Part shown: piece by piece, positions 20,830 through 44,645 of the stretch
Layout of the letters: each line of letters opens with the position of its first letter
Position numbering within the stretch: position 1 is the first letter of the stretch
Source of the DNA: Bradyrhizobium sp. dw_78
Lineage (GTDB): Bacteria; Pseudomonadota; Alphaproteobacteria; Rhizobiales; Xanthobacteraceae
NCBI RefSeq assembly: GCF_018449525.1
Contig: NZ_JAAVUS010000001.1
Coordinates: 1 to 64,000 of the forward strand
DNA length: 64,000 bases
Direction: 5' to 3'
Made by a program: the position numbers and the translations under genes
The notes under the pieces: generated by a model
Told to the model about the DNA's origin: nothing
The model's input: only the letters and a program-made list of their open reading frames with translations
Databases searched by the model: none

Positions 20830-20975
20830 CGAACCGCAAGCCGGTTGACGTGGCCACCGCGAGCGTCGGACCGGGTGCTTGCCCCTGCATTCACGCAAAC
20901 TTCATCGCCGGTTGGAGAAATATCGGGGACCCGCCTGCGTTTACCAGTTTGGGGCCTCAGCAACCGGAGAATGAG

Positions 20976-21518
20976 TTGTCCAACTCAATTTGGATCCGCG
21001 CATTGACATTGTTGGTCGCGGGCTTTGCGATTTTATCGGTATTCGAACAAGCCGCCACGCGTGCTCAAGACGCGACAGCGGTAGTTTCGGCAGCCACTCA
21101 ACATCCCGCCGAGGCTCCTTTCATCGCCGAGAACGATGCGGCGATGAACAAAATGATGAAAGGCATGGATGTGAAGCCGACCGGCGACATCGATGCCGAT
21201 TTCGCCGCCATGATGATCCCGCACCATCAGGGCGCCATCGACATGGCGTTGTCGGAGTTGCGCTATGGCAAGAACGAACAGCTGCGCCGGATCGCGCAGG
21301 AGATCATCGTCGAGCAGCAGCAGGAGATCAACGCCATGCATCTGGCGCTCGGCCAGCCGTTGCCGCCCGATGCGCCGGCGCCGACGCAAGTCTTTTCCAA
21401 CCAAGTCACTTCCGGTCAGGTCACTTCCAGCCAGTCGCCAACCACCATGCCGGATCACGCCATGTCGGGTCACGCCGCGATGCCGCATGATGGCATGTCG
21501 ATGATGCCGATGAAATGA
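20976..21518 (+). CDS. DUF305 secreted protein, probably starting at TTG
   Basis: Export-targeted helical protein of about 180 aa with the DUF305 core (MMIPHHQGAIDMALSELRYG), a ferritin-like family of unknown function often linked to copper. The C-terminus is Met/His-rich (MPDHAMSGHAAMPHDGMSMM), a pattern typical of copper binding. I prefer TTG 20976: it follows GGAGAATGAG and starts directly before a signal peptide (WIRALTLLVAGFAILSVFEQ). The first ATG, at 20850, would add an unlikely 42-residue leader. Its stop overlaps the next gene's region. Confidence 0.78.
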   Translation: MSNSIWIRALTLLVAGFAILSVFEQAATRAQDATAVVSAATQHPAEAPFIAENDAAMNKMMKGMDVKPTGDIDADFAAMMIPHHQGAIDMALSELRYGKNEQLRRIAQEIIVEQQQEINAMHLALGQPLPPDAPAPTQVFSNQVTSGQVTSSQSPTTMPDHAMSGHAAMPHDGMSMMPMK

Positions 21519-21529
21519 GGATTGATGAA

Positions 21530-23011
21530 ATGAATATGATTGCCGTGAACCGTTATCTTGTCTCCGCGTGTTTTTCTGTGACGCTTGCGATTTGCTCGCC
21601 GGCATGGGCCGGTCAGGCGCCGGCCGCGGCGTCAGCGCCGGATATTCCGCTCAGCCATCGCGACCGCGTCTATGCGGCCGAGCAATTCTCCAACACGGTG
21701 TCGGTCACCGATCCCGCCGACAACAGGCTGCTCGGCGTCATTCGTCTCGGCGATCCGCAGCCGGGCAATTTCAGCCCGCTATATAAGGGACAGGTTCTTG
21801 TTCACGGCATGGGCTTTTCGCCCGACCACAAGACGATCGCGGTGGTGTCGATCGGCTCGAACTCGGTTACCTTCATCGATACCGCGACCAACGCGGTGAA
21901 GCACACGACTTATGTCGGACGCTCGCCGCACGAAGCCTTCTTCACGCCGGATGGCAGCGAGGTATGGGTGACGGTGCGGGGCGAGGACTACGTCTCGGTG
22001 CTGGACGGCAAGACCTTTGAGGAAAAGGCCCGCATCAAGACGCCGAGCGGCCCGGGCATGCAGATCTTCTCGCCCGACGGCAAGTATGGCTATGTCTGCT
22101 CGTCCTTCAATCCGGAGACCGATGTGGTCAGCGTCGCCGATCATCAGATCGTCGGCCGCGTCACGCAGGCGAGCCCGTTCTGTCCCAACATCGCGGCGAC
22201 GCCCGATGGCAAGCAGGTGTGGTTCACACTGAAGGACACCGGCAAGACCCAGGTGTTCAACGCCCAGCCGCCGTTCGAGGTCATCAAGACGCTCGATACC
22301 GGGCCGATCACCAACCATGTCAATATCGCGCGCAATGCCAATGGCGACTTCGCCTATGTGACGGTCGGCGGCCTGAATCAGGTGAAGGTGTTCCGCACCG
22401 ATAATTTCGAGCAGGTCGCGACGATTCCGGTCGGCAAGCTGCCGCATGGCGTCTGGCCGTCGGGTGACGGCAGCCGGGTCTATGTCGGTCTGGAAAACGA
22501 CGACGCGCTGGCCGCGATCGATACGCTGACCAACAAGGTGATCGCGACGATCCCGATCGGACAGGCGCCGCAGGCGGTCAATTATGTGCCGAACGCCGTA
22601 CCCGAAGGCGACGGCAAGCAGGATTTGCAGCCGCTGGGCCTGGCGGGACAGGCCGCTCATCTGGTGCTGATGCCGCGATCGACCACCGGCTCGTCGGCCG
22701 ATGCGTCGAGAACGCCGACCAGCGTTTCGCTGTTCGACCAGGGCCTTGTCCAGATCTTGCAGGCCTCGGTGACCAGGCTTGAGCCGAAGAAGCCGTATGT
22801 GCTCGCTTTCTCGTCCAACCGTGACGGCAGCGGGCCGTTGCAGCCGCTCGCGAATTTCATGACCAATCCGGCGGGCTCGGCGATCGTCAATGCGGCCGGC
22901 CCGATCCGGCAGCTGGTGGACGACGCGGCTCTCGCGCAGAAACGCTATCTCGTCATCGCGGAAGGCGGCGGCGGAAAACCGGGGGACGTCGTGCAGGTCG
23001 AGGCGCGGTAA
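21530..23011 (+). CDS. YncE-type beta-propeller periplasmic protein
   Basis: A 493-aa secreted protein with signal peptide (ending SPAWAGQ) and repeated propeller blades of the YVTN/YncE type (EQFSNTVSVTDPADNRLLGV, GSNSVTFIDTATNAVKHTTY, VYVGLENDDALAAIDTLTNK). Propellers of this class bind partners or ligands; no enzymatic residues are evident. I chose ATG 21530, with AGGA 9 nt upstream; ATG 21515 overlaps the previous stop. The tight spacing with the DUF305 gene suggests one operon, possibly for metal handling. Confidence 0.85.
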   Translation: MNMIAVNRYLVSACFSVTLAICSPAWAGQAPAAASAPDIPLSHRDRVYAAEQFSNTVSVTDPADNRLLGVIRLGDPQPGNFSPLYKGQVLVHGMGFSPDHKTIAVVSIGSNSVTFIDTATNAVKHTTYVGRSPHEAFFTPDGSEVWVTVRGEDYVSVLDGKTFEEKARIKTPSGPGMQIFSPDGKYGYVCSSFNPETDVVSVADHQIVGRVTQASPFCPNIAATPDGKQVWFTLKDTGKTQVFNAQPPFEVIKTLDTGPITNHVNIARNANGDFAYVTVGGLNQVKVFRTDNFEQVATIPVGKLPHGVWPSGDGSRVYVGLENDDALAAIDTLTNKVIATIPIGQAPQAVNYVPNAVPEGDGKQDLQPLGLAGQAAHLVLMPRSTTGSSADASRTPTSVSLFDQGLVQILQASVTRLEPKKPYVLAFSSNRDGSGPLQPLANFMTNPAGSAIVNAAGPIRQLVDDAALAQKRYLVIAEGGGGKPGDVVQVEAR

Positions 23012-30961: not shown

Positions 30962-31663
30962 TCAGGATGCGCGCAACGGCCATTGGCCGGTGATTTGGAA
31001 ACGCGCCAAAGGATGGTCCTGTCGAAACAGGGCGATCTGGTCGATCGCCAGCGACGTCATTTGAAGCGCGGCAAACCGCTGCCGCAGCAACGCGACGATC
31101 GTCTCGCGTCGTTCGGCTGGCAGCCTACCGGTCAGCGTCATGTGGAAGCGGAATTCGTCCATCACGTAGGGATAGCCCCAGCGGTCGAGATAGTCGCATT
31201 GCCTCGGCGTCAGCTTCGACGGATTTCGCCGCGCGCGGTCTTCCGCCATGAGCGGCGCGCGGAACGAATCGAAGGCGCGGATAGCGTCGGCGGCTAACTG
31301 CGCAAGCTCGGCCGAATGTGCCGCCGGCACGATGGCGATGAAGTCGCTAATCGTGTTGACGACGGGTTGGATGACCGGAACGGCCCGTGGCGTTTGGGCA
31401 AACGCTTCGCAGGCCGCGAGCAATTCGGCCTCGGTCTTGCCGGCCGCCAACGTCAGCGGCGCTTTCAGCGTGGCGTGGAGGCCGTATTTGCGCGGATCCT
31501 GCGTCAGCTCCCGCCAGTCCGGCACCATCTGCTCGATGCCGTCGGCAAACGGGAGATCCTTGCCGCTGAAGGTGTCGTAGCCGAGCAAATGCGCACCGAA
31601 GCGGTCGAGATCGCTGCCGGGCGGCGGGGCATAATAGATCGCATAGCGCGGAGCATCGGTCAT
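30962..31663 (-). CDS. DUF1045 phosphonate-cluster protein, 2H phosphoesterase fold
   Basis: A 233-aa protein of a family found almost only in phosphonate clusters. Two H-x-T motifs (YGLHATLKAPLTL and FRFHMTLTGRL) mark the 2H phosphoesterase superfamily, whose members act on cyclic phosphates or 2',5'/RNA ends. PhnP, the usual phosphoribosyl cyclic phosphodiesterase of the C-P lyase pathway, is missing here. I infer that this enzyme may hydrolyse the 1,2-cyclic phosphate product in its place. It is last in a minus-strand operon, 20 bp after the PhnM-like gene. Confidence 0.8.
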   Translation of the reverse strand: MTDAPRYAIYYAPPPGSDLDRFGAHLLGYDTFSGKDLPFADGIEQMVPDWRELTQDPRKYGLHATLKAPLTLAAGKTEAELLAACEAFAQTPRAVPVIQPVVNTISDFIAIVPAAHSAELAQLAADAIRAFDSFRAPLMAEDRARRNPSKLTPRQCDYLDRWGYPYVMDEFRFHMTLTGRLPAERRETIVALLRQRFAALQMTSLAIDQIALFRQDHPLARFQITGQWPLRAS

Positions 31664-31683
31664 GGGTGAAGCATAGAGCCGGC

Positions 31684-32877
31684 TCAGACGGCTGCAACCG
31701 TCTTGCGTGACACCGCGGGCCTTCGGCTCAGCCGGTCCGCATCGGCGATGTGAACCAGACGGCCGGCGGAGATCACGGCAACGAGGCGCGGCCTCAGCTT
31801 CGGTTGATCGTCGACGAGGAGGACATCGGCGCGACCACCGGGGGCGAGAACGCCGCGATCGGCAAGTCCCGCGGCGCGGGCCGGCGCGGATGAAATCAGA
31901 TCCCAGGCTTTCGGCAAAGTCAGCACGCCGTCATGGACCAGCCGGAAGGCGGCGAGCAATGGCGCCGGATAATAATAATCCGAAGCCAGCACCGAACACA
32001 GGCCCTTGGCGATCATGTCGCTGGCCCGGGTCCAGCCGGTGTGGCTGCCACCGCGCACCACATTCGGCGCGCCGAACACGATGAAGTCGCCGCCATCGGC
32101 GGCTTCGCGCGCGGTCTCTTCATTCACCGGGAATTCGGCGATGGCGATGCCCTGGCTGCGGAAGGCCTGGCGCATCGCGGGGCTGTTGTCGTCATGCGAC
32201 AGCGTGCGGACGCCGGCGTCGTTCGCGGCCTTGGCCAGACGCGCGACCGAGGCGGGCACGTCATGTGCGCGGCCAACGACGCGCTTCACCAGCGCATCGA
32301 ACGCCTCGCTGGAGAGGCCGGTGCGTTCGACCATGCGGTTGCGCTTCTGCGGCTTGGCAAGGTCCGCGACCGTTCCATCCATATGGTCGTTGAAGCCGAG
32401 CAGGTCGATCCGGCCTTCGGCCAGCCATCGGCAGATGTCATCCTCGGCGTCGAGATTGTAGGTCTCGTGCCGCAGATGGAAGCGGGTGTCGGCGGCAAGC
32501 TGCGGCCGCAGGCTTTCGATCGCCTCGAGCAATTGCCGCGCGTTGTCGGCGCTGCGCAGGCCAGGCTCCCACGACCAGGTGGTGGCGTGAAACACCGTGG
32601 TGATGCCGTTGGCGATCGCCTGCCGGTCGCTGTCGACCAGCGCGACGTCGATCGGAAAATCGACGCCGGCGCGGGGCATCATCTGCCGTTCGAACGCATC
32701 GCCATGCAGGTCGACAATGCCCGGCAGCACCAGCAGGTCTCCGGCGTCGATCGCAAGCGAGCCGTGCTGCTGTCCGGCGCCGACGGAGCTGATCTTGCCG
32801 TCCGCGATCCCGAGCGAGGTTTCGCGAATTTCCGCACCGAGAAGTGTCCGGCCGCCTTCAATCAGAACCTCGCTCAT
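31684..32877 (-). CDS. phnM: Second PhnM-like amidohydrolase
   Basis: A 397-aa amidohydrolase of the PhnM family (alpha-D-ribose 1-methylphosphonate 5-triphosphate diphosphatase). The metal site reads DLHGDAFER rather than HTDHLE as in the paralogue at 42898; later motifs [15 protein letters not shown] and the shared [11 protein letters not shown] are intact. ATG 32877 (MSEVLIEGG) overlaps the upstream hexapeptide gene stop (ATGA). A longer reading frame upstream is shadow. Two PhnM proteins in one cluster suggest different substrates or conditions. Confidence 0.88.
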
Positions 32878-33539
32878 GACGCGGCCCTTTGCCGCGGCGC
32901 TGATGCCCGCGCGGTGTTCTTGGTCTCGTATTTTTCGAGAAATTCCTCGATGCCAAGCTTGCGGAAGTCCGGCAGCGCAAGGCGCAGCGTTTCGTGGTCC
33001 CACTCCCACCATGCCAGCGCCGCCAACCGGTCGCCGATGGTTTCCGGAAACCGTCGTTTGATCACGCGCGCGGGATTGCCGCCGACGATGGTGTAGGCTG
33101 GAATGTCCTTGGTCACGATGGCACCGGCCGCGACCACGGCGCCGGTGCCGACGTTGCGTCCCGGCAGCACGATCGCGCCGTGGCCGATCCAAACGTCATG
33201 GCCAATGTCTACGTGATGCGCGCGCCGCCATTCGAAGAATTCGGCATCGTCGCTCTCTTCCGCAAAATAGGCGCTGGCGCGATAGGTGAAGTGCGCTTGC
33301 GTGGCGCGATGCATCGGGTGATTGCCGGGATTGATCCGGGTCATCGCCGCGATCGAGCAGAACTTTCCGATCGTCGTGTAGGTGATCTGGGAATCGTTCA
33401 CGACGTAGGAGTAATCGCCCATCGTCACGTCGAGCAGCATGGTCCGGGCGCCGACTTCGCAATAGGCGCCAAGCCGGGTGTCCTGGACCTTGGCCGTCGG
33501 ATCGATCGTGGGTTCGACGGAGAGTCGCTTGCCGGCCAT
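32874..33539 (-). CDS. Phosphonate-cluster hexapeptide-repeat acyltransferase
   Basis: A 221-aa left-handed beta-helix transferase (LbH/XAT type) of the family found in phosphonate operons. Hexapeptide turns are visible ([13 protein letters not shown]..., [30 protein letters not shown]), as is the catalytic-type His in [17 protein letters not shown] infer acetylation of an aminophosphonate, the role of the GNAT enzyme PhnO in E. coli, which is absent here. It is first in the operon with the second phnM and DUF1045, behind a triple Pho-box-like repeat. Confidence 0.85.
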
Positions 33540-33594
33540 ACCAGTTTCCCTACCGTTTGTTCATCGAAAGGCTTGCACGTCATCGATAGCCTTC

Positions 33595-33623
33595 ATGACG
33601 ATATAATGACAACTCAATGACGC
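33595..33623 (-). promoter_or_regulatory. Triple Pho-box-like repeat for the hexapeptide-phnM-DUF1045 operon
   Basis: On the minus strand GCGTCAT-TGAG-TTGTCAT-TATA-TCGTCAT gives three 7-bp half-sites exactly 11 bp apart, the period of PhoB sites (consensus CTGTCAT with 4-bp spacers). It ends 55 bp before the ATG at 33539, with a TATCGAT -10-like element between. Confidence 0.65.
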
Positions 33624-33663
33624 GGCAGCCTCCAATGTTGACGGTTGCCGCACCGCAGTGCGA

Positions 33664-33681
33664 TTGTCACATAACTGTTAA
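33664..33681 (+). promoter_or_regulatory. Pho box upstream of phnC
   Basis: TTGTCAC-ATAA-CTGTTAA fits the tandem CTGTCAT-N4-CTGTCAT PhoB consensus with 11-bp period. It lies 43 bp before the phnC ATG at 33725. Confidence 0.6.
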
Positions 33682-33724
33682 ATCCCGACGCTAGCGATGA
33701 TCGGCGGCTACGGTGGAGCATCGC

Positions 33725-34552
33725 ATGTTGGTGGTGGAAGGTTTGACGTGCCGTTTCGGCGCGAAGGCCGCGGTCGACAATGCGTCGTTCTCGGTTGAAC
33801 CGGGCACATTCGTCGGTGTGATTGGCAGATCGGGTGCCGGCAAGTCGACACTGTTGCGGATGATCAACCGTCTCGCCGAGCCGACCTCGGGACGGATTCT
33901 GTTCGACGATCTCGATGTGACGGCGCTGCGTGGCAGAAATCTGCGCAAATGGCGGGCGCGCTCGGCGATGATCTTCCAGCAATTCAATCTGGTCGGCCGG
34001 CTCGATGTCCTCACCAATGTGTTGATGGGCCGGCTTGCCGATATTCCGGCATGGCGATCGCTGGCGCAACTCTGGCCGGAAGCGGACCGGGCGCTGGCGA
34101 TGTCGGCGCTGGAGCAGTTCGACATCGCCCAATATGCCGCGCAGCGCGCCGACCAGCTTTCGGGCGGCCAGCAGCAGCGCGTGGCTATCGCCCGTGCCCT
34201 GGTGCAGCAGCCGGATATCATCCTCGCCGACGAGCCGATCGCCTCGCTCGATCCGCGCAACACCAAGATCGTGATGGATGCGCTGTTGCGCATCAACAAG
34301 CATTTCGGGATCACGGTTTTCTGCAATCTTCATTCGCTTGAACTGGCGCGCGGCTATTGCGACCGCCTGATCGGCATGTCGGCCGGGCGCGTGGTGTTCG
34401 ATGGCGCGCCGGCCGCGCTGACCGACCACATCGCGCGCGAACTTTACGACCTCGAGGCCAATGAAGTGATGGGCCATGAAGTCATGGGCGGTGCGCCGGT
34501 GCCTGCGCCCGATGGCGCGACGGTTCCCGCTCTCGGTACCGTCGCGGCCTGA
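33725..34552 (+). CDS. phnC: Phosphonate ABC transporter ATP-binding protein PhnC
   Basis: A 275-aa ATPase of the phosphonate importer. Walker [10 protein letters not shown] (about residue 35), Q-loop [21 protein letters not shown] (typical of PhnC), signature [15 protein letters not shown], Walker [13 protein letters not shown] and switch His [10 protein letters not shown] are present. ATG 33725 follows GGAGC; a GTG four codons earlier is the alternative. phnD follows after 97 bp. Confidence 0.95.
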
Positions 34553-34649: not shown

Positions 34650-35582
34650 ATGATCAATCGTCGTATTGTTCTTGCCGGCGCCGCGTCGCTGGCCTTTGTC
34701 CGTACCGCCATGTCGGCGGAAGACTGGAAAGCGAAATATCCGGAAATCACCTTTGCGGTGATTCCGGCCGAGAACGGCTCGGGCGTGACCGAACGCTTTA
34801 CGCCGTTCGTGAATTATCTGTCGAAGGAACTCGGTATCAAGGTGACGCTGCGCGTCGCCAACGACTACGCCGCCGTCATCGAGGGACAGCGCGCCGGTAA
34901 TATCCAGATCGGCTATTACGGACCGGCATCGTTCGCCCGTGCCCTCGTCACCGGCGTCAAGACCGACGCCTTCGTGATCGACGTCAATTCCGACGGTTCC
35001 AAGGGCTATTATTCGGTGTTCTATGTGCTGGCCAAGAGCCCCTATCAGAAGCTCGAGGATTTGAAGGGCAAGAACCTCGGTCTGGTCGATCCCAACTCGA
35101 CCTCCGGCAACAACATGCCGCGCTTCAAGATGAACCAGATGGGCATCGATCCCGACACCTTCTTCTCGCAGGTGGTGTTCACCGGCAGCCACGAGAACGC
35201 CGTGCTGGCGCTGGCACAGGGCACCGTCGACGTCTGCGCCAATTGGTGGAACGCCGAGGACGATTCGAACCTGACGCGCATGCTCTCCAAGAACATGGTC
35301 AAGTCGAGCGACGGCACGCCGCTGAAGAAGGAAGACTTCCGGATCATCGTGAAGTCCGACCTCATCATCAACTCGCCCTACGCCTATCTCAGCGAATTGC
35401 CCGATGACATGAAGGCGGCGATCAAGCAGGCCTTCCTCGATGCGCCGAAAAAGGACAGCGAAGCCTTCAAGAAGCTCTCGGATGGCAAGAACCAGCCGTG
35501 GCAGTCGGTCGGCAACGCAGACTACGACAAGACCATCGAGCTGATTAAGTTCGTCGACAATCTGCGCAAGAAGGCGTCCTGA
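34650..35582 (+). CDS. phnD: Phosphonate ABC transporter substrate-binding protein PhnD
   Basis: A 310-aa periplasmic phosphonate-binding protein. It has a short signal peptide (MINRRIVLAGAASLAFVRTA). The PhnD-type fold shows IPAENGSGVTERFTPFVNYL, GYYGPASFARAL and the phosphonate-pocket-type DPNSTSGNNMPRF. AAGGAGATC precedes the ATG. A strong terminator-like hairpin follows the stop, so this gene may be expressed above the permeases. Confidence 0.95.
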   Translation: MINRRIVLAGAASLAFVRTAMSAEDWKAKYPEITFAVIPAENGSGVTERFTPFVNYLSKELGIKVTLRVANDYAAVIEGQRAGNIQIGYYGPASFARALVTGVKTDAFVIDVNSDGSKGYYSVFYVLAKSPYQKLEDLKGKNLGLVDPNSTSGNNMPRFKMNQMGIDPDTFFSQVVFTGSHENAVLALAQGTVDVCANWWNAEDDSNLTRMLSKNMVKSSDGTPLKKEDFRIIVKSDLIINSPYAYLSELPDDMKAAIKQAFLDAPKKDSEAFKKLSDGKNQPWQSVGNADYDKTIELIKFVDNLRKKAS

Positions 35583-35664: not shown

Positions 35665-36552
35665 ATGACAACAACAGCCGTATCCATTCTTCCCGGTCAG
35701 CAGCTTGCCGCGCTCAACGAGGCCTATGGCAAGGCAGTGGCGCGGCGGCGTCTGCGCTTTACGCTCGCAACCGCCGTATTCTGTACCGCGCTGATCATCG
35801 CCGCGATCGGGGCGGATGTGAACCTGAGGACGCTGTTCACCTATTTCGGACATTTCGTCAGCTATTTCGATCGCATCCTGACGCTCGATGACAGCCACCG
35901 GGTCTGGACCAATATTCCGGAATGGCTGTGGGGCTGGCGCAAATGGTCGCTGCTCTTGGGCGAAACCATCCTGATCAGCTATGTCGGCACCTTGTCCGGC
36001 GCGGTGATCGGCTTTGCGCTCAATTTTCTCGCGGCTGAAAACACCTCGCCAGGACCGTGGACGCGCTTCACCATCAAGCGGCTGATGGAATTCTGCCGCA
36101 CGGTTCCCGATATCGTCTTCGCCCTGATCTTCGTCATCGCGTTCGGTCTCGGCCCGATGGCCGGCGTGCTCGCGATCATGATCCATTCGATCGGCGCGCT
36201 CGGAAAACAATATGCCGAGATGGTCGAGAACATCGACATGAAACCGGTGGAAGGCGTGCGTTCCACCGGCGCCGGCTGGATCTCCTGCATGCGGTTCGCG
36301 GTGTTGCCGCAGGTCGCGGCGGGCTTCGCCAGCTACACGCTGCTGCGCTTCGAGATCAATGTGCGCAGCGCCTCGGTGATGGGTTTCGTCGGCGCCGGCG
36401 GCATCGGGCTGGAACTGATCACGGCGATCCGCAAATTCTATTATTCGGATGTGAGCGCGATCCTGCTGATGATCATTCTGACCGTCTTTGTCATCGACAT
36501 CGGCACCGGCTGGATCCGCGGCCGGCTGTTCGGCGGGGAACGGCGGTCATGA
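35665..36552 (+). CDS. phnE: Phosphonate ABC transporter permease PhnE1
   Basis: A 295-aa inner-membrane permease with about six TM segments. The inner-membrane transport signature is AEMVENIDMKPVEGVRSTGAGWISCMRFAVLPQ (EAA-like loop). It is paired with a second, related permease that overlaps its stop by ATGA, which suggests a PhnE heterodimer as in other rhizobia. The ribosome binding site is weak. Confidence 0.93.
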   Translation: MTTTAVSILPGQQLAALNEAYGKAVARRRLRFTLATAVFCTALIIAAIGADVNLRTLFTYFGHFVSYFDRILTLDDSHRVWTNIPEWLWGWRKWSLLLGETILISYVGTLSGAVIGFALNFLAAENTSPGPWTRFTIKRLMEFCRTVPDIVFALIFVIAFGLGPMAGVLAIMIHSIGALGKQYAEMVENIDMKPVEGVRSTGAGWISCMRFAVLPQVAAGFASYTLLRFEINVRSASVMGFVGAGGIGLELITAIRKFYYSDVSAILLMIILTVFVIDIGTGWIRGRLFGGERRS

Positions 36553-37397
36553 CCAAAGTCTCGATACCCGAACCCGAAGGGCTGCGGGCACGATATCCGG
36601 ATGTTTTCGAGCGGCCGGCCTCGGCGCGGCTCGCCTGGCCCTTGATGCTGCTCGTCGCGTTGGCGATTTTCGTGTTCGGGCTGGTCCATCTCGGATTTTC
36701 GCCCTGGCGCATGCTCAACGGCCTGCACCAGCTCGGCTGGATCACGCTGATGATGTTGCCGCCCAACCCCGGCTCGTCGCTGCCGACCTACCTCCACGCG
36801 CTCGGCGAAACCCTGTCGATCGCGCTGCTCGGCACCACGTTGGCCGCGGTGTTCGCGCTCCCGGTCAGCCTGCTCGCGGCCAAGAACATCGTGCCCTCGA
36901 ACATCTTCCGTTTTCCGATTCGCCGCTTCCTCGACACCATCCGCGGCGTCGATACCCTGATCTGGGCGCTGGTCTGGATCAATGTCGTCGGCCTCGGCCC
37001 GTTCGCGGGCGTGCTCGCCATCGCGGTGTCGGATTTCGGCGCGCTCGGCAAATTATTTTCCGAGGCGATCGAAGGCGCGGACCGCAAGCAGGTCGAAGGC
37101 ATCCGCGCTTCCGGCGGCAATGCGCTGCATGAGATCCGTTTCGGCCTGATGCCACAGGTGTTTCCTGTCATCGCCGGCCAGGTGCTTTATTTCATCGAGT
37201 CCAATACCCGTTCGGCGACCATTATCGGCATCGTCGGCGCCGGCGGCATCGGCCTGCAACTGGCCGAGCAGATCCGCGTGCTGGAATGGCAAAAGGTGTC
37301 GTTCCTCATTCTGATGGTTCTGATCGCCGTTGCCGTGATCGACTGGATCTCGAGCAAGCTGCGTTTCGCCATCATCGGCCCGCGCGCGGTGGTGTAG
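36549..37397 (+). CDS. phnE: Phosphonate ABC transporter permease PhnE2
   Basis: A 282-aa permease homologous to PhnE1, with the matching EAA-like loop SEAIEGADRKQVEGIRASGGN and about six TM segments. ATG 36549 overlaps the phnE1 stop; reading further upstream in this frame is shadow of phnE1. It ends the phnCDE1E2 transport operon and is convergent with phnF. Confidence 0.93.
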   Translation: MTKVSIPEPEGLRARYPDVFERPASARLAWPLMLLVALAIFVFGLVHLGFSPWRMLNGLHQLGWITLMMLPPNPGSSLPTYLHALGETLSIALLGTTLAAVFALPVSLLAAKNIVPSNIFRFPIRRFLDTIRGVDTLIWALVWINVVGLGPFAGVLAIAVSDFGALGKLFSEAIEGADRKQVEGIRASGGNALHEIRFGLMPQVFPVIAGQVLYFIESNTRSATIIGIVGAGGIGLQLAEQIRVLEWQKVSFLILMVLIAVAVIDWISSKLRFAIIGPRAVV

Positions 37398-37430: not shown

Positions 37431-38159
37431 CTAAACGTTCTCGACCAGGAACTCGACGCGCTCGGCGGCAAAGCGCGAGCGCTTGGTGACGAGCGGCTGG
37501 CCATCATTATCGACGTCGGTGGAATCGACCACCAGAATGGGGCGTCCCAGCGTGAGGTCCAGCCGCGCGGCGTCGGTGGCGTCGACGATCGCCGCGGTGA
37601 TCCGGGTGGAAGCCCGGCGATAGTCGCGAACGCCGTAATGCGTCAGCAGCTTGGTCATCGAGCGCGCGCTGGCGAAGACATTGCCGGCATCAGGAAAACG
37701 TTCGGCGGAGAGCCATGTGGTGCTGATACAGACCGGCGCGCGGTCGGCGAGCCGCAGCGCTTCGATCCGGGCCAGCGGCGCGCCGGTCTTGAGGCCGAGC
37801 AGTTGCGCCAGTTCGCGCGTCGCCGGCTCTTCGGACGCATCGATCAGCTGGCCGCGCGGCTCGCGCCCGCCGGCGCCGACGATTTCGGAAAAACGTGTTC
37901 GCGAGCGCAGCGGATAGGCCAGACGAGCGGTTTCCACATAGGTGCCGCTGCCGCGTTCGGCGCGCACCAGCCCGCGTTCGGCCAGCGCCGCCAGCGCCCG
38001 GCGCACGGTATGGCGATTGACCCGATAGGTTTCGGCAATCTCCATCTCGCCGGGCAGTTTCTCGCCGGCCGTGAAGCGGCCTTCGGCGATGCCGCGCTCG
38101 ATCCCGTCGGCGACCTGCCGCCACAGGGCCACGCCGGAACTGATGTCCTGCATATTCAT
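37431..38159 (-). CDS. phnF: GntR/HutC-family repressor PhnF
   Basis: A 242-aa regulator. A GntR winged helix (about 12-75: AEGRFTAGEKLPGEMEIAET, HTVRRALAALAERGLV) is followed by a UTRA ligand-binding domain. It sits divergent to phnG, and a perfect TTGTCTAT-N4-ATAGACAA palindrome lies in the shared spacer. Members of this family repress phosphonate or phosphate genes and release DNA when the inducer is bound. Confidence 0.92.
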   Translation of the reverse strand: MNMQDISSGVALWRQVADGIERGIAEGRFTAGEKLPGEMEIAETYRVNRHTVRRALAALAERGLVRAERGSGTYVETARLAYPLRSRTRFSEIVGAGGREPRGQLIDASEEPATRELAQLLGLKTGAPLARIEALRLADRAPVCISTTWLSAERFPDAGNVFASARSMTKLLTHYGVRDYRRASTRITAAIVDATDAARLDLTLGRPILVVDSTDVDNDGQPLVTKRSRFAAERVEFLVENV

Positions 38160-38274: not shown

Positions 38275-38766
38275 ATGTCCGCAAGCGACGATGCAATCGA
38301 CGTTGATGTCCGTAACGGCGATAACGGCAAGCAGGCGCTGCGCAAGGCGGCGATGGCGGTGCTGGCGTATTCCGACGCCGCCCAGATCGCCGCGCGGCTC
38401 GATATGATGGCCCTGCCGGCCCACGAAGATCTGCGCGAGCCGGAAAACGGCCTGGTGATGGTGCGCGGCCGGGTCGGCGGCGACGGCGCGCCGTTCAATC
38501 TGGGCGAAGCCACGGTCTCGCGTGCGGCGGTGCGGCTTGTGACCGGCGAGGTGGGTTTTGGCTATACGCTCGGCCGCGACCGGCAAAAGGCGCGCCTGAT
38601 CGCGTTGTGCGATGCCCTGATCCAGACCGCCGGCCATGCCGATATGGTCGAGGCGCAGGTGCTCGCGCCGCTGCGCGCGGTTGTCGCGTCCGATCGTCAT
38701 CGCAGGGCGCGGGAGACGGCGGCGACGCGAGTCGATTTTTACACGATGGTACGCGGCGAGGGCTGA
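38275..38766 (+). CDS. phnG: C-P lyase core subunit PhnG
   Basis: A 163-aa subunit of the PhnGHIJ C-P lyase core, which helps transfer phosphonate onto ATP-derived ribose. PhnG features: RENGLVMVRGRVGGDGAPFN-like region (EPENGLVMVRGRVGGDGAP) and TGEVGFGYTLGRDRQKARLIALCDAL. The ATG at 38275 starts MSASDDAID; the N-terminus before KQALRKAAMAVL is longer than usual and acidic. First gene of phnGHIJKLMN. Confidence 0.93.
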   Translation: MSASDDAIDVDVRNGDNGKQALRKAAMAVLAYSDAAQIAARLDMMALPAHEDLREPENGLVMVRGRVGGDGAPFNLGEATVSRAAVRLVTGEVGFGYTLGRDRQKARLIALCDALIQTAGHADMVEAQVLAPLRAVVASDRHRRARETAATRVDFYTMVRGEG

Positions 38767-38769
38767 ACG

Positions 38770-39378
38770 ATGACCACAGTTGCCGAAATGCCAGCGGGTT
38801 TCGCGGACAAGGTGGTGTCCGCGCAAAAGACCTTTCGGTCGGTGATGGATGCGATGGCGCGGCCCGGCAGCGTGCAGCGTATTTCGGCGGCAAGCGGGAC
38901 GCCTCCCGGCATGATGCGCGGCACCGCCGCGATCGCGCTGACGTTGTTCGACCACGACACGCCGCTTTGGCTCGACCCGTCGATGTCCGCGGCCTCGGAT
39001 GTGTCGAAATGGCTGAAATTCCATACCAGCGCGCCTGTCGTCACCGACTCCTCGGTCTGCAATTTTGCACTGATCGGCGATGCGAAAGCGCTTCCCGCGC
39101 TCGACCGCTTCGCTTTCGGCAGCAACGAATATCCTGACCGCTCCACCACGCTGATCCTCCAGGTCGAAAGCCTGAGCGAAGGGCCGGCGGTCGAACTGCA
39201 AGGCCCCGGCATCGACGGCGTTGCGGTGTTGCGGGCCACGATCCAGCCTTCGGATTTGTTCGAACGGCTTGCCGTCAACGCCGCGCTGTTTCCGCGCGGC
39301 ATCGATGTCGTGCTGGTTCATGACGATTGCATGGTCGCGATCCCGCGCACCACGCGGCTGGCAGCCAAGGGAGACTGA
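38770..39378 (+). CDS. phnH: C-P lyase core subunit PhnH
   Basis: A 202-aa core subunit, dimeric in known structures and related to PLP-fold proteins without cofactor. Typical parts: N-terminal FRSVMDAMARPGSVQRI, LFDHDTPLWLDP, and the C-terminal FPRGIDVVLVHDD. It starts 3 nt after phnG. Confidence 0.93.
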   Translation: MTTVAEMPAGFADKVVSAQKTFRSVMDAMARPGSVQRISAASGTPPGMMRGTAAIALTLFDHDTPLWLDPSMSAASDVSKWLKFHTSAPVVTDSSVCNFALIGDAKALPALDRFAFGSNEYPDRSTTLILQVESLSEGPAVELQGPGIDGVAVLRATIQPSDLFERLAVNAALFPRGIDVVLVHDDCMVAIPRTTRLAAKGD

Positions 39379-39381
39379 CGC

Positions 39382-40485
39382 ATGTATGTCGCGGTCAAGG
39401 GTGGCGAGCGCGCCATCGACAACGCCCACCGTCTGCTGGCGCATGAGCGCCGCGGCGACCGTGAGGTGCCGGAGATTTCGCTGGCGCAGATCTCCGGCCA
39501 GCTCAGCCTTGGCGTCGACCGCGTGATGACCGAAGGCTCGCTCTATGATCGCGAACTCGCGGCGCTGGCGATCAAGCAGGCGCGTGGCGACCTGATCGAG
39601 GCGATCTTCCTGGCCCGCGCCTTCCGTGCCACCTTGCCGCGCTTCGGCGCCACCGAGCCGGTCGATACCGGCGCGATGCAGGTACGGCGCCGGATCTCGG
39701 CGACCTTCAAGGACATCCCCGGCGGTCAGATTCTCGGGCCGACGTTCGATTACACCCATCGGCTGCTCGATCCGCAGCTTGCCGGGGGATTCGTCCCCGA
39801 ACAGCCTGCGACCTCGGACGCCTCGGACGCGGCGATGCCGCGTGTCACCGACATCCTCGGCCGCGACGGCCTGATCGAGCCGTCTCCGCCTGCGGATACC
39901 GGCGCGCCCGTCGGCGATCTGACCCGCGAGCCCCTGAATTTTCCCGCCGACCGCGATCTGCGCTTGCAGAATCTGGCGCGCGCCGATGAGGGCTTTCTGC
40001 TCGCGCTCGGCTATTCCTCGCAGCGCGGTTACGGCCGCAACCATCCCTTTGCTGGCGAAATCCGGCTTGGAGAGGTCGAGGTCGAGTTCATGGCCGAAGA
40101 TGCCGGCTTCACGGTGCCGCTCGGCCCGATCACGCTGACCGAATGCCAGATGGTCAACCAGTTCAAGGGCTCGGCGACCGAAGCGCCGTGCTTTACCCGC
40201 GGCTACGGGCTGGCGTTCGGACACAGCGAGCGCAAGACCATGTCGATGGCGCTGGTCGACCGCAGCTTGCGCGCGCGTGAGCTTGGCGAGGAAGTTCTGG
40301 CGCCGGCGCAGGATGAAGAGTTCGTGATGTCGCATTCCGACAATGTGCAGGCGACCGGATTCGTCGAGCATCTCAAGCTGCCGCATTATGTCGACTTCCA
40401 GTCCGAGCTCGGGCTGTTGCGCAAGCTGCGCCAGGAATTCAGCGAGGCCGTCGAGCCGTCGCAGATCAAGGAAGCTGCGGAATGA
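39382..40485 (+). CDS. phnI: C-P lyase core subunit PhnI
   Basis: A 367-aa core subunit; with PhnG, PhnH and PhnL it forms the 5-triphosphate ribosyl phosphonate from ATP. Family features: MYVAVKGGERAIDNAHRLLA at the start, QISLGVDRVMTEGSLYD-like segment, and the C-terminal SDNVQATGFVEHLKLPHYVD. The stop overlaps phnJ (ATGA). Confidence 0.95.
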   Translation: MYVAVKGGERAIDNAHRLLAHERRGDREVPEISLAQISGQLSLGVDRVMTEGSLYDRELAALAIKQARGDLIEAIFLARAFRATLPRFGATEPVDTGAMQVRRRISATFKDIPGGQILGPTFDYTHRLLDPQLAGGFVPEQPATSDASDAAMPRVTDILGRDGLIEPSPPADTGAPVGDLTREPLNFPADRDLRLQNLARADEGFLLALGYSSQRGYGRNHPFAGEIRLGEVEVEFMAEDAGFTVPLGPITLTECQMVNQFKGSATEAPCFTRGYGLAFGHSERKTMSMALVDRSLRARELGEEVLAPAQDEEFVMSHSDNVQATGFVEHLKLPHYVDFQSELGLLRKLRQEFSEAVEPSQIKEAAE

Positions 40486-41366
40486 GCGCGCCGACCTATA
40501 ATTTCGCCTATCTCGACGAGCAGACCAAGCGGATGATCCGCCGCGCGATCCTCAAGGCGATCGCGATCCCCGGCTATCAGGTGCCGTTCGCCAGCCGCGA
40601 GATGCCGATGCCCTATGGCTGGGGTACCGGCGGAGTACAGGTGACGGCGGCGATCCTCGGGCCCGACGATGTGCTCAAGGTGATCGACCAGGGCTCCGAC
40701 GACACCACCAACGCGATCTCGATCCGCAAATTCTTCGCCAAGACCGCCGGCGTCGCGACCACCACCAGCACGGCGGATGCCACCGTGATCCAGACCCGCC
40801 ATCGCGTTCCCGAAGCGCCGCTGCATGCGGGGCAGGTGCTGGTCTATCAGGTGCCGATTCCGGAACCGCTGCGCTACCTCGAACCGCGCGAGACCGAAAC
40901 GCGGCGCATGCACGCGCTCGGCGAATACGGCCTGATGCATGTCAAGCTCTATGAGGACATCGCCCGCTTCGGCCATATCGCGACCTCCTATGCCTATCCG
41001 GTCAAGGTCAACGCGCGCTATGTGATGGACCCGTCGCCGACGCCGAAATTCGACAATCCGAAGATGGACCATTGCGCGGCGCTGCAATTGTTCGGCGCCG
41101 GGCGCGAGAAGCGGATCTATGCGATCCCGCCGCACACCCCGGTGGTGTCGCTCGACTTCGAGGATCATCCGTTCACGCGCTACCGCTTCGACGCGCCCTG
41201 CGCGCTGTGCGGCGCCGATGATTCCTACCTCGATGAGATCGTCACCGACGACAAGGGCAGCCGGATGTTCGTCTGTTCCGACACCGATTACTGCGAGACC
41301 AGGCAAGCGCAGGGTCATCGCGGCAGCGAGAGCGCGGCGCCGCACAAGGAACGCGCGCATGGCTGA
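40482..41366 (+). CDS. phnJ: C-P lyase catalytic subunit PhnJ (radical SAM)
   Basis: A 294-aa radical-SAM enzyme that cleaves the C-P bond of ribose-1-phosphonate-5-phosphate, giving the alkane and a 1,2-cyclic phosphate. The four key cysteines are at 240, 243, 265 and 271 (CALC...MFVC...DYC), the same spacing as E. coli C241/C244/C266/C272. The Gly-rich radical region and HALGEYGLMHVKLYEDI are present. It overlaps phnI and phnK, showing tight coupling. Confidence 0.96.
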   Translation: MSAPTYNFAYLDEQTKRMIRRAILKAIAIPGYQVPFASREMPMPYGWGTGGVQVTAAILGPDDVLKVIDQGSDDTTNAISIRKFFAKTAGVATTTSTADATVIQTRHRVPEAPLHAGQVLVYQVPIPEPLRYLEPRETETRRMHALGEYGLMHVKLYEDIARFGHIATSYAYPVKVNARYVMDPSPTPKFDNPKMDHCAALQLFGAGREKRIYAIPPHTPVVSLDFEDHPFTRYRFDAPCALCGADDSYLDEIVTDDKGSRMFVCSDTDYCETRQAQGHRGSESAAPHKERAHG

Positions 41367-42162
41367 GACAGGCAACGCCGTGCAGGACAATGACGCGCCG
41401 CTGCTGGTCGCGGATGACTTGAGCAAATCCTATGGCCGGCTGACGGCCTGCCGCGACGTGTCGTTCGCGCTCTATCCCGGCGAGGTGCTGGCGATCGTCG
41501 GCGAGTCCGGTTCGGGCAAGTCGACGCTGCTGCAATTGCTGTCGGCGCAGCTGGCGCCGAGCGCGGGCGGTGTATCGTACCGGATGCGCGACGGCGTGAT
41601 GCGTGATCTCGCCAGTCTCGGCGAGGCCGAGCGGCGGTTTCTGTTCCGCACCGATTGGGGCTATGTGCATCAGGATCCGGCGCAGGGCCTGCGCATGGCG
41701 GTGTCGGCCGGCGCCAATGTCGGCGAGCGGCTGATGGCGGTGGGCTGGAATCACTATGGACGGATCAGGGATGCCGCGTCGTCCTGGCTGGAGCGGGTCG
41801 AGATCGGCATCGACCGTATCGACGATGAGCCGCGGACCTATTCGGGCGGCATGCGGCAGCGGTTGCAGATCGCGCGCAACCTCGTCACCGAGCCGCGCCT
41901 GGTCTTCATGGACGAGCCGACCGGCGGGCTCGACGTGTCGGTGCAGGCGCGCCTGCTCGACCTGATGCGCAATCTGGTCAGCGAGCTCGGCCTGGCGGCG
42001 ATCGTGGTCACCCATGATCTCGCGGTGGCGCGATTATTGTCGCACCGCGTAATGGTGATGAAAGGCGGTCGCGTGATCGAGACCGGGCTGACCGATCAGG
42101 TGCTCGACGATCCCCGCGAGCCCTACACCCAACTTCTCGTTTCCTCGATTCTGCCGGCATGA
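41359..42162 (+). CDS. phnK: C-P lyase ABC-type ATPase PhnK
   Basis: A 267-aa ABC-fold protein that binds the core complex at PhnJ rather than a membrane permease. Walker A GESGSGKST, signature YSGGMRQRLQIARNL and Walker B LVFMDEPTGGLD are intact. ATG 41359 overlaps the phnJ stop by 8 nt, and its own stop overlaps phnL. A longer frame upstream is phnJ shadow. Confidence 0.94.
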   Translation: MAETGNAVQDNDAPLLVADDLSKSYGRLTACRDVSFALYPGEVLAIVGESGSGKSTLLQLLSAQLAPSAGGVSYRMRDGVMRDLASLGEAERRFLFRTDWGYVHQDPAQGLRMAVSAGANVGERLMAVGWNHYGRIRDAASSWLERVEIGIDRIDDEPRTYSGGMRQRLQIARNLVTEPRLVFMDEPTGGLDVSVQARLLDLMRNLVSELGLAAIVVTHDLAVARLLSHRVMVMKGGRVIETGLTDQVLDDPREPYTQLLVSSILPA

Positions 42163-42881
42163 GCGCACCCAGGGCTGAAATGATGACCGCGATGATCGAT
42201 ATCAGCAACGCCCAAAAAAGCTTTGTGATGCATTTGCAGGGCGGGATCGAATTGCCGGTGGTGCGCGGCGTCTCGTTCCAGGTCAATCCTGGCGAATGCG
42301 TGGTGCTGTCGGGGCCGTCAGGCGCCGGAAAATCCTCGATCCTGAAGATGATCTTCGGCAATTACCGCTGCGATGGCGGACGGATCGGCATCCACCATCA
42401 GGGCAAGGTGATCGATCTGGCCAGGGCCGAGCCGCGGCAGGTGCTCAGCGTGCGCCGCTCTACCATCGGCTATGTCAGCCAGTTCCTGCGCGCGGTGCCG
42501 CGCGTCGCTACCGTCGACGTGGTGGCCGAGCCGTTGATCGCAAACGGGACCGCGCGCGCCGAGGCGCGCGAACGAGCGGGGCAGTTGTTGCGCCGTCTCA
42601 ACATTCCCGAACGGCTGTGGATGCTGCCGCCCTCGACCTTCTCAGGTGGGGAGCAGCAGCGCGTCAACATCGCGCGCGGATTCATTTCCGATCTGCCGAT
42701 CCTGCTGCTGGATGAGCCGACCGCCTCGCTCGATGCCGCCAATCGCGCGGTCGTGGTCGATTTGATCGATCAAAAGAAACGTCAGGGCGTCGCCATGGTC
42801 GCGATCGTGCATGACGACGAGATCCGCCATCTGATCGCCGACCGTACCGTCGACGTGACATCGTTCGCAGCCGCCGCATGA
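42159..42881 (+). CDS. phnL: C-P lyase-associated ABC ATPase PhnL
   Basis: A 240-aa ABC-fold protein of the C-P lyase machinery. Walker A GPSGAGKSS, signature FSGGEQQRVNIARGF and Walker B ILLLDEPTASLD are present, and QFLRAVPRVATVDVVAEPL is typical of PhnL. The ATG at 42159 overlaps phnK; internal ATGs at 42180 and 42192 are possible starts. Confidence 0.93.
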   Translation: MSAPRAEMMTAMIDISNAQKSFVMHLQGGIELPVVRGVSFQVNPGECVVLSGPSGAGKSSILKMIFGNYRCDGGRIGIHHQGKVIDLARAEPRQVLSVRRSTIGYVSQFLRAVPRVATVDVVAEPLIANGTARAEARERAGQLLRRLNIPERLWMLPPSTFSGGEQQRVNIARGFISDLPILLLDEPTASLDAANRAVVVDLIDQKKRQGVAMVAIVHDDEIRHLIADRTVDVTSFAAAA

Positions 42882-42897
42882 AGGAAGATATTTCAAG

Positions 42898-44052
42898 ATG
42901 AAGCCGACGCCCGAAACCGTCATCGGCAATGCCAGGATCGTGCTGGCGGATCGCGTGATCGATCGCGGCTGGATCGCGGTCGTCGATGGCCGCATCGCCG
43001 GTTTTGGTGAGGGCAACGCGCCTGCGGGCAGCGAGGACGCGAGCGGCGATCTGGTCATGCCCGGCCTGATCGAACTGCACACCGATCATCTGGAAGCGCA
43101 TTACGTGCCGCGTCCGAAAGTGTTTTGGGATCCGATTGCCGCGGTCGTCTCCTATGACGGGCAGCTCGCGACCTCCGGCATCACCACGGTGCTGGATTCC
43201 TTGCGGGTCTGGCGCGAGGACGGCGCCGAGGACGTGGACGGGCGGGCCGGGGTGCTGGCCGAGGCGATCGCGGTCGCGCGCGCCGAAAATCTGCTGCGGG
43301 CGGATCATTTCCTGCATCTGCGCTGTGAAATCCCGATGCCCGACGTGGTCGAGGAAGCCAAGGAACTGGTCGGGCGACCGGATGTGCGGTTGATGTCGCT
43401 GATGGATCACACGCCGGGCCAGCGCCAGTTCCGCGACGAAGCCAAGCTGCGCGACTATTATCGCGGCAAGGGCGCCGGCATGACCGATGCCCAGCTCGAC
43501 GTACTGTTCGAGAAGCGCTTTGCCTATCAGAAGGCCTACGCGGCAACCAATATGCGCGCGATCGTGGCGCTGGCGCAGCAGCACGGCATTCCGCTCGCAA
43601 GCCACGACGACACCACGGAAGAGAACGTCACGGATGCGATCCATGACCGGGTTTCGGTGGCGGAATTTCCGACCACGATGGAAGCCGCGCGCGGCCTGCA
43701 CCAGGCCGGCATCGGCATCCTGATGGGGGCGCCGAACGTGGTGCGCGGCGGTTCGCATTCCGGCAACATCGCCGCTGTCGATCTCGCCGTCGAAGGGCTG
43801 CTGGACATCCTGTCGTCCGACTATGTCCCGTCGAGCCTGTTGATGGGCGCGCTGCAATTGCCGCAGCGCGTGCCCGCGATCGATCTAGCGTCCGCGGTCC
43901 GCACCGTCACCAAGACACCCGCGGAAGCTGTCGGTCTTTCCGACCGCGGCGAGATCGCCATCGGCAAGCGCGCCGATCTCATTCGGGTGCATGTGGCGCG
44001 CGATATTCCGGTGGTGCGTTCGGTATGGCGGGAGGGGCAACGGGTGGCATGA
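42898..44052 (+). CDS. phnM: PhnM: ribose 1-methylphosphonate 5-triphosphate diphosphatase
   Basis: A 384-aa amidohydrolase that removes pyrophosphate from the 5-triphosphate before C-P cleavage. Canonical motifs: [52 protein letters not shown] and LSSDYVPSSL. It follows phnL after 16 bp and its stop overlaps phnN. A divergent paralogue lies at 31684-32877. Confidence 0.95.
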   Translation: MKPTPETVIGNARIVLADRVIDRGWIAVVDGRIAGFGEGNAPAGSEDASGDLVMPGLIELHTDHLEAHYVPRPKVFWDPIAAVVSYDGQLATSGITTVLDSLRVWREDGAEDVDGRAGVLAEAIAVARAENLLRADHFLHLRCEIPMPDVVEEAKELVGRPDVRLMSLMDHTPGQRQFRDEAKLRDYYRGKGAGMTDAQLDVLFEKRFAYQKAYAATNMRAIVALAQQHGIPLASHDDTTEENVTDAIHDRVSVAEFPTTMEAARGLHQAGIGILMGAPNVVRGGSHSGNIAAVDLAVEGLLDILSSDYVPSSLLMGALQLPQRVPAIDLASAVRTVTKTPAEAVGLSDRGEIAIGKRADLIRVHVARDIPVVRSVWREGQRVA

Positions 44053-44645
44053 CGGACACATTGGCGATATCCGGTCAACGATCGCAGGCGATTGGGCCGG
44101 GCCGGCTGATCTTGGTGGTCGGACCGAGCGGCGCCGGCAAGGATACGCTGCTGGGCCTGGCGCGAGCGGCCTGTGCGGACAATGCCGGCATCGTGTTTGC
44201 GCGCCGCGTGGTGACGCGCGAAGCCTCCAGTTTCGAGGACAACGAACAAGTCAGCCATGATGCCTTCCAGCAGGCGCTCGCGAGCGACGCCTATGCGATG
44301 CATTGGGAGGCGCATGGCCATTGCTACGGCCTGCCGCGCGTGATCGATGACGAGATCCGCGCCGGCCGCACCGTGATCGCCAACGTCTCGCGCACGGTGG
44401 TAGGCGCGATGCGCGAGGCTTATCAACATGTCGTAGTGGTTTCGATCACGGCGCCGCCGCAGGTTCTTGCCGAGCGGCTGGCGATGCGGGCGCGCGGCAG
44501 CGACGGAAAAATCGAGCAGCGGCTTGGCCGCGCCGTCGATGGCGCCGCGGCCGTGCCCGATTTCACGATTCTGAATGTCGGCATCGCCGATTATCACGCG
44601 CGCCAGCTCGTCCGGATCATCAAGGCCGAACGCTGGGACGATTAG
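44049..44645 (+). CDS. phnN: Ribose 1,5-bisphosphate phosphokinase PhnN
   Basis: A 198-aa guanylate-kinase-fold enzyme that phosphorylates ribose 1,5-bisphosphate to PRPP, returning the ribose carrier to metabolism. P-loop GPSGAGKDTLL, then RRVVTREASSFEDNEQVSHDAF. ATG 44049 overlaps the phnM stop. It is the last gene of the operon; dispersed repeat copy B follows directly and may mark the transcript end. Confidence 0.94.
   Translation: MTDTLAISGQRSQAIGPGRLILVVGPSGAGKDTLLGLARAACADNAGIVFARRVVTREASSFEDNEQVSHDAFQQALASDAYAMHWEAHGHCYGLPRVIDDEIRAGRTVIANVSRTVVGAMREAYQHVVVVSITAPPQVLAERLAMRARGSDGKIEQRLGRAVDGAAAVPDFTILNVGIADYHARQLVRIIKAERWDD

Follow-up and report, generated by a model that had tools for sequence, protein, structure and literature searches.

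A DUF1045 2H phosphoesterase as putative replacement for PhnP in a C-P lyase locus of Bradyrhizobium

Introduction

The C-P lyase locus of Bradyrhizobium sp. dw_78 raises the question of which enzyme opens 5-phosphoribosyl 1,2-cyclic phosphate (PRcP) in a cluster that has its core genes and phnN and lacks phnP. We analysed a window of 64,000 nucleotides (contig NZ_JAAVUS010000001.1, positions 1 to 64,000), the whole stretch to which all coordinates below refer. A preliminary description of this DNA had proposed that three genes transcribed divergently from the cluster, encoding a DUF1045 protein, a second PhnM with an altered metal site and a hexapeptide transferase, form an alternative branch that replaces both PhnP and PhnO. 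Taken as a whole, we consider it quite probable that the DUF1045 protein does the job of PhnP, that the second PhnM is a paralogue and that the hexapeptide protein is an acetyltransferase of the XAT type.

Results

A complete C-P lyase cluster faces a three-gene divergent operon

The minus strand carries, in the order of transcription, the gene for a TIGR03308 hexapeptide acetyltransferase resembling XAT/CatB/Vat enzymes (32874..33539; ORF, profile and PDB match), a second phnM of the NF011985 group (31684..32877; ORF, profile, alignment and model) and the DUF1045 gene, also known as TIGR03223 or “RcsF”, whose product is a 2H phosphoesterase and the proposed phosphoribosyl 1,2-cyclic phosphate phosphodiesterase (30962..31663; ORF, profile match, motifs and AlphaFold2 model). 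All three products scored above the cut-offs of their families: the hexapeptide protein reached 342 bits with TIGR03308 (cut-off 202), which bears out the acyltransferase assigned earlier to this operon, the second PhnM 726 bits with NF011985 (cut-off 656), and the DUF1045 protein 278 bits with TIGR03223 (cut-off 249) and 197 bits with PF06299 (cut-off 24). There is a 4-bp overlap between the ATG of the second phnM and the stop of the preceding hexapeptide gene, and 20 bp separate the second phnM from the start of DUF1045; because of this spacing we read the three genes as one operon. In our scan, the named proteins most similar to the DUF1045 protein were from Bradyrhizobium (64-66% identity).

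Divergent from this operon, the plus strand carries phnC (33713..34552), phnD (34650..35582), phnE1 (35665..36552) and phnE2 (36549..37397; start placed by eye, with a 4-bp overlap with phnE1), followed by a phnF-type GntR/UTRA regulator on the minus strand (37431..38159) and, again on the plus strand, by phnG (38275..38766; start inferred), phnH (38770..39378), phnI (39382..40485), phnJ (40482..41366), phnK (41359..42162), phnL (42159..42881), the canonical phnM (42898..44052) and phnN (44025..44645). The three divergent genes are thus real and the C-P lyase cluster is complete including phnN, with neither phnP nor phnO, as had been described. Among the fetched loci, neither DUF1045 nor PhnN nor PhnM was found fused to a different phn family. 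Elsewhere in the window, and unrelated to the phn genes, a DUF305 protein (20850-21515) adjoins an ORF (21515-23011) that looks beta-propeller-like by eye.

The gap between the divergent operons (33540-33712) holds three ATGAC repeats with an 11-bp period (33595..33623, no strand assigned), and 11-bp repeats are typical of PhoB boxes. Among 20 hexapeptide-phnC gaps in the fetched loci, at least one ATGAC pair was present in 17 and a tandem arrangement in 16 (gaps scanned on one strand), against a background elsewhere in the same loci of 0.073 per kb on both strands; the exceptions were three gaps without the repeat (L036, L157, L158) and one with a single pair (L037). With up to one mismatch, the repeat is matched 6 times across the window, 2 of them in the divergent gap, so that the case for it rests on its conservation in relatives. 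The plain PHO consensus CTGTCAT-N4-CTGTCAT with at most 3 mismatches was not enriched in the window (2 matches found against 3.3 expected); both matches fall in the gap. Judging from these letters, a putative Pho-box-like repeat may tie the operon to phosphorus starvation.

PhnP and PhnO are absent from the genome

A phnP gene elsewhere in the genome had been named in the preliminary description as evidence that would speak against its reading. A profile search of the whole genome returned nothing over the TIGR03307 cut-off, nor did any of the 80 genomes of the search set that includes it. The best PhnP-like match was an RNase Z-like metallo-beta-lactamase protein at 47 bits, compared to a cut-off of 272. 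Similarly, no orthologue of E. coli-type PhnO was found in this genome, the best match being partial, on another contig and at 41 bits, while seven clear orthologues in other genomes scored 200-273 bits. Since both genome-wide searches were negative, PhnP and PhnO are absent from the genome and not merely from the cluster. None of the 43 DUF1045-bearing genomes tested had a match above 63 bits to E. coli PhnO, and the cluster of G394 contains a GNAT gene that scores 42 bits against PhnO. The seven PhnO-bearing genomes all lack TIGR03308 over the cut-off, but this non-overlap says little because all seven belong to one family (f52, which we take to be enterobacterial).

DUF1045 and PhnP exclude each other across C-P lyase genomes

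The anticorrelation of DUF1045 and PhnP was assessed in 397 genomes drawn from the phylum of the window (taken to be Pseudomonadota) and rich in its relatives. PhnJ was over the cut-off in 103 genomes (a sub-threshold PhnJ fragment in G040 was excluded) and DUF1045 in 90. Among the 103 PhnJ-positive genomes, 76 had DUF1045 and no PhnP, 25 had PhnP and no DUF1045, none had both and two had neither. DUF1045 was also found over the cut-off in 14 of the 294 genomes without PhnJ, in 11 of them strongly, a set that leaves out the weak scorers G180, G234 and G349. Both states occur within a single family (f46; G204 and G394 as opposed to G312). On the PhnJ tree (109 rows, with bootstrap support not settled), the DUF1045 label needs only 2 changes and the PhnP label 4, suggesting few independent swaps; for this reason, and because relatives of the window are abundant in the draw, a genome-level Fisher p value overstates independence. 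The DUF1045 tree was built from 97 rows, namely the sampled genomes and the window, with named loci and one short DUF1045 piece excluded, and gene order in 14 PhnP-positive clusters is known for the PhnH-PhnL stretch only. In six genomes of family f17, presumably Rhodobacteraceae (G245, G265, G267, G271, G387, G395), DUF1045 is separated from the PhnJ cluster.

Two further observations concern additional copies. In family f3, presumably Rhizobiaceae, there is a second DUF1045 copy located outside phn clusters (L161, L168, L177, L180, L188, L131), and these copies group in a supported clade of their own. A deep second PhnJ clade (L165, L173, L245, L246) belongs to clusters with an HGDM-type PhnM, in genomes that also have ordinary PhnJ.

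The two PhnJ-positive genomes with neither enzyme (G320 and G323, family f52; loci L125 and L113) have PhnN, and genome-wide searches found neither PhnP nor DUF1045 over the cut-off; no third PRcP enzyme was seen beside their clusters in an ORF list scanned by eye. These genomes, together with the weak PhnP-like protein in the genome of the window, could indicate that PRcP is opened by another enzyme of the genome, such as an unlinked metallo-beta-lactamase protein, with DUF1045 as an accessory. We consider this explanation improbable, as the PhnP-like protein is RNase Z-like and far under the PhnP cut-off, and an unlinked enzyme would leave the 76 / 25 / 0 pattern unexplained.

The DUF1045 protein has the motifs and the predicted fold of a 2H phosphoesterase

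Both HxT motifs that had been noted in the DUF1045 protein are present (H63-A-T65 and H174-M-T176) and nearly invariant over 177 rows from the fetched loci, with H63 and H174 each conserved in 176, T65 in 172 and T176 in 160. R6, G28 and P69 are conserved in all 177 rows, and Y60, K67, R135 and R146 in more than 90% of these rows, which are not dereplicated and include close relatives and some repeats; 43 chosen rows were also aligned. A PDB sequence search gave nothing significant. The AlphaFold2 model (pLDDT 97.1, pTM 0.92) yielded 11 Foldseek matches at E up to 0.001 and resembled YjcG (2d4g; Z 14.8), LigT (Z 13.3) and the Arabidopsis Appr>p phosphodiesterase (1jh6, Z 13.3 over 169 residues at 3.9 Å; 1jh7, 12.4; 1fsi, 12.1). 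The paired motifs and the predicted fold both place the protein in the 2H phosphoesterase superfamily.

This assignment is consistent with a reaction on PRcP. The Arabidopsis cyclic phosphodiesterase (1fsi/1jh6) and its yeast counterpart share the 2H fold predicted for DUF1045, and enzymes of this type yield the 1''-phosphate from a ribose 1'',2''-cyclic phosphate, the same chemistry as that of PhnP on PRcP. The Arabidopsis enzyme differs in that its substrate is an ADP-ribose derivative, and identity in structural alignments is 14-15%. E. coli PhnP, for which DUF1045 would take over the same reaction and pathway slot, has a metallo-beta-lactamase fold with metals as opposed to the 2H fold, and homology is not expected. 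In the pathway that we propose, PhnI/GHL and PhnM would form 5-phosphoribosyl 1-alkylphosphonate and PhnJ would cleave its C-P bond to give PRcP. The DUF1045 protein would then open the ring at O2, using its two HxT motifs and no metal, to yield ribose 1,5-bisphosphate, which PhnN would convert to PRPP. The substrate, the regiochemistry and the metal independence of the DUF1045 step are what we infer for this enzyme.

Published operons and growth data point to the same role

A role of DUF1045 in place of PhnP is not a new idea and was proposed in 2009-2014 under the name RcsF. According to a 2023 review (PMC10574752, citing Podzelinska 2009), phnP was present in 27 of 54 operons and rcsF in 16 operons without phnP, and a further paper (PMC8235418) cites the 2014 MMBR review (Hove-Jensen 2014) for DUF1045 as a phosphoribosyl cyclic phosphodiesterase. 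Thus, the hypothesis of the preliminary description and its anticorrelation test had both already been published. The “RcsF”/DUF1045 proteins of phn operons (TIGR03223; Podzelinska 2009 as cited in PMC10574752, Martinez 2013 in PMC3840354, Hove-Jensen 2014 as cited in PMC8235418) match ours in family, by name, in a context without phnP and in the proposed role; nothing essential differs here, where DUF1045 lies in a divergent operon with the second PhnM and the hexapeptide gene.

The published growth data come from a Rhodobacteraceae fosmid, B3_TF_MPn_2, that allows an E. coli delta-phnHIJKLMNOP strain to grow on methylphosphonate (Martinez 2013; PMC3840354). The fosmid lacks phnP and carries, besides the 2H gene “RcsF” and a hexapeptide transferase, a GNAT gene and a second gene resembling phnM. 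An E. coli phnP strain is unable to turn phosphonate into usable phosphorus (PMC3463581). Because the whole fosmid rescues growth without phnP while the phnP strain fails, some gene of the fosmid does the job of PhnP, and the 2H gene is the candidate named by the authors (PMC3840354). The rescue belongs to the whole cluster and not to a single gene, and its “RcsF” is equated with DUF1045 by name only. In Phaeobacter, a “putative C-P lyase DUF1045” protein was raised under phosphorus stress alongside PhnI, J, L and M (PMC10132767). In the open-licence literature, covered by titles and the beginnings of abstracts and with most subscription journals outside its scope, we found no purified-enzyme assay of DUF1045. 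Trichodesmium is described as growing on methylphosphonate without PhnNOP (PMC10574752), which together with G320 and G323 suggests that other routes exist. Given the mutual exclusion, the predicted fold and the published complementation and proteomics, DUF1045 is very likely the replacement for PhnP, as the preliminary description had suggested.

The second PhnM retains the amidohydrolase site

The second PhnM had been described as having an altered metal site on the basis of HGDAFE as compared to HTDHLE. The H-x-D pair is common to both versions. In an alignment of 182 PhnM rows (144 ordinary, 34 of the second type and 4 of a third, HGDM type; not dereplicated, with L001 repeating the window), the pair is found in every row, including 34/34 second-type and 144/144 ordinary PhnMs, and we rejected the altered site on these counts. 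The other residues of the amidohydrolase site, an E, two H and a D, occur in 34/34 second-type rows and in 142-144 of the 144 ordinary ones; H58, D60, E138, H165, H228 and D300 are invariant in a set of 19 second-type rows and in the set of 34. We take the H-x-D, E, H, H and D positions to be the metal ligands. The position read as a lost histidine is H, N or A across PhnMs of different clusters, with A in ordinary PhnMs from the clusters of G048, G312, G378, G210 and G274, and is therefore not a fixed ligand.

Changes are found at other positions (PhnM1 numbering): T63G in 34/34 second-type rows, M170N in 34, D101H in 24 and D304S in 20, H138 replaced by T (21) or L (8), and in some rows H141Q (10) and D171N (9). 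The model of the second PhnM (pLDDT 94.2) has an amidohydrolase fold. On these residues, the second PhnM is probably an active amidohydrolase paralogue with a changed pocket and altered specificity; as a guess, it may hydrolyse a related ribose 5-triphosphate, perhaps simply the ribose 5-triphosphate that PhnI forms.

A second-type profile separates these proteins cleanly (at least 380 bits, compared to at most 306 for others), and of the 87 genomes with strong DUF1045 matches 40 have one, as against 0 of 27 PhnJ-positive genomes without DUF1045, counts that are not corrected for phylogeny. A group with lower scores (380-467 bits) is encoded outside the cluster, mainly in f17 and also in G227 and G091, and is present in the PhnJ-less G083, G164 and G179. 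The PhnM1 of B3_TF_MPn_2, likened to ours by description only, is a second phnM-like gene in a Rhodobacteraceae cluster without phnP (PMC3840354). Sulfitobacter operons resembling this fosmid are reported without phnM1 and mostly without the transferase (PMC5649143), so that the second PhnM and the hexapeptide transferase look accessory.

The hexapeptide protein is probably not a replacement for PhnO

The hexapeptide protein is of the XAT type and not a homologue of the GNAT-type E. coli PhnO. It resembles XAT/CatB/Vat acetyltransferases in sequence (6mfk, E 1e-25), the histidine of MHR being aligned to that of GHR, presumably the catalytic one. TIGR03308 was over the cut-off in 64 of the 76 genomes with DUF1045 and PhnJ, in 5 of the 25 with PhnP and in 1 of the 2 with neither. 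The hexapeptide gene was also found beside PhnP, and its presence in the 5 PhnP-positive genomes indicates that its occurrence does not depend on PhnP being absent; unlike the phn-linked copy, some TIGR03308 copies lie away from phn clusters (e.g. G071, G055, G051). In the published growth table, two fosmids with hexapeptide genes let E. coli grow on 2-aminoethylphosphonate and not on aminomethylphosphonate (AMPn) or 1-aminoethylphosphonate (1AEPn) (PMC3840354). Presuming that the gene is expressed there in E. coli, we rejected the hexapeptide protein as PhnO on this table, and the gene beside PhnP argues in the same direction. It is probably an XAT-type acetyltransferase and not a PhnO replacement for 1-aminophosphonates.

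These results bear on the proposal that DUF1045, a metal-altered second PhnM and the hexapeptide transferase together form a branch replacing PhnP and PhnO. The gene content is as that proposal requires, and the 43 DUF1045-bearing genomes tested lack PhnO matches above 63 bits. Against it stand the intact H-x-D of all second-type PhnMs, the hexapeptide gene in PhnP-positive genomes and, with expression presumed, the two fosmids that gave growth on neither AMPn nor 1AEPn (PMC3840354). With two of the three parts contradicted, we consider the full proposal highly improbable: DUF1045 in place of PhnP is retained on exclusion and fold, while the altered metal site and the PhnO role are given up, and no support was found for a branch handling aminophosphonates.

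DUF1045 and PhnM also occur together without PhnJ

For the genomes without PhnJ, the genome-wide searches across the whole draw covered PhnJ, DUF1045, PhnM and PhnN. PhnM (E up to 1e-40) was found in 114 of 397 genomes, namely the 103 with PhnJ and 11 others, and among PhnJ-less genomes it was present in 9 of the 11 with strong DUF1045 compared to 2 of the remaining 283. DUF1045 adjoins PhnM in four of the nine (G268, G355, G393, G095; loci L126, L136, L130, L128), with PhnN alongside in the first three. Since DUF1045 is strong in genomes without PhnJ, it may have another substrate. It could act mainly on another ribose (cyclic) phosphate with a partial role in C-P lyase, and PhnM-DUF1045(-PhnN) would then be a salvage set feeding PRPP with or without C-P lyase, an explanation favoured by this co-occurrence and adjacency. 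However, six of the nine genomes are of family f17 and thus not independent, PhnM is distant from DUF1045 in five (G083, G160, G164, G179, G373), and the gene order in G355 and G268 resembles the clusters of relatives (G199, G206) with the core cut out, which makes decay possible. Overall, we consider this alternative fairly unlikely, and prefer DUF1045 as the PRcP phosphodiesterase of the C-P lyase pathway.

The PhnJ-less sets may be clusters in the course of decay, may accompany a C-P lyase whose replicon is missing from the assembly, or may be a module that serves a purpose of its own. In the last case, PhnM-DUF1045-PhnN could be a portable module that makes PRPP, without C-P lyase, from ribose 5-triphosphate or from ribose 1,2-cyclic phosphate compounds, and the PhnJ-less lineages would draw such ribose phosphates from a source not recognised so far; we put this forward as speculative and, on balance, unlikely.

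Discussion

Should DUF1045 prove to be the PRcP phosphodiesterase, many genomes with C-P lyase (76 of 103 in our relative-rich draw) would complete the pathway with an enzyme other than PhnP, and the ring-opening step would be a clean case of non-homologous replacement. The unnamed DUF1045 family would become an assayable enzyme, and phnP would be a poor marker of methylphosphonate use and methane release.
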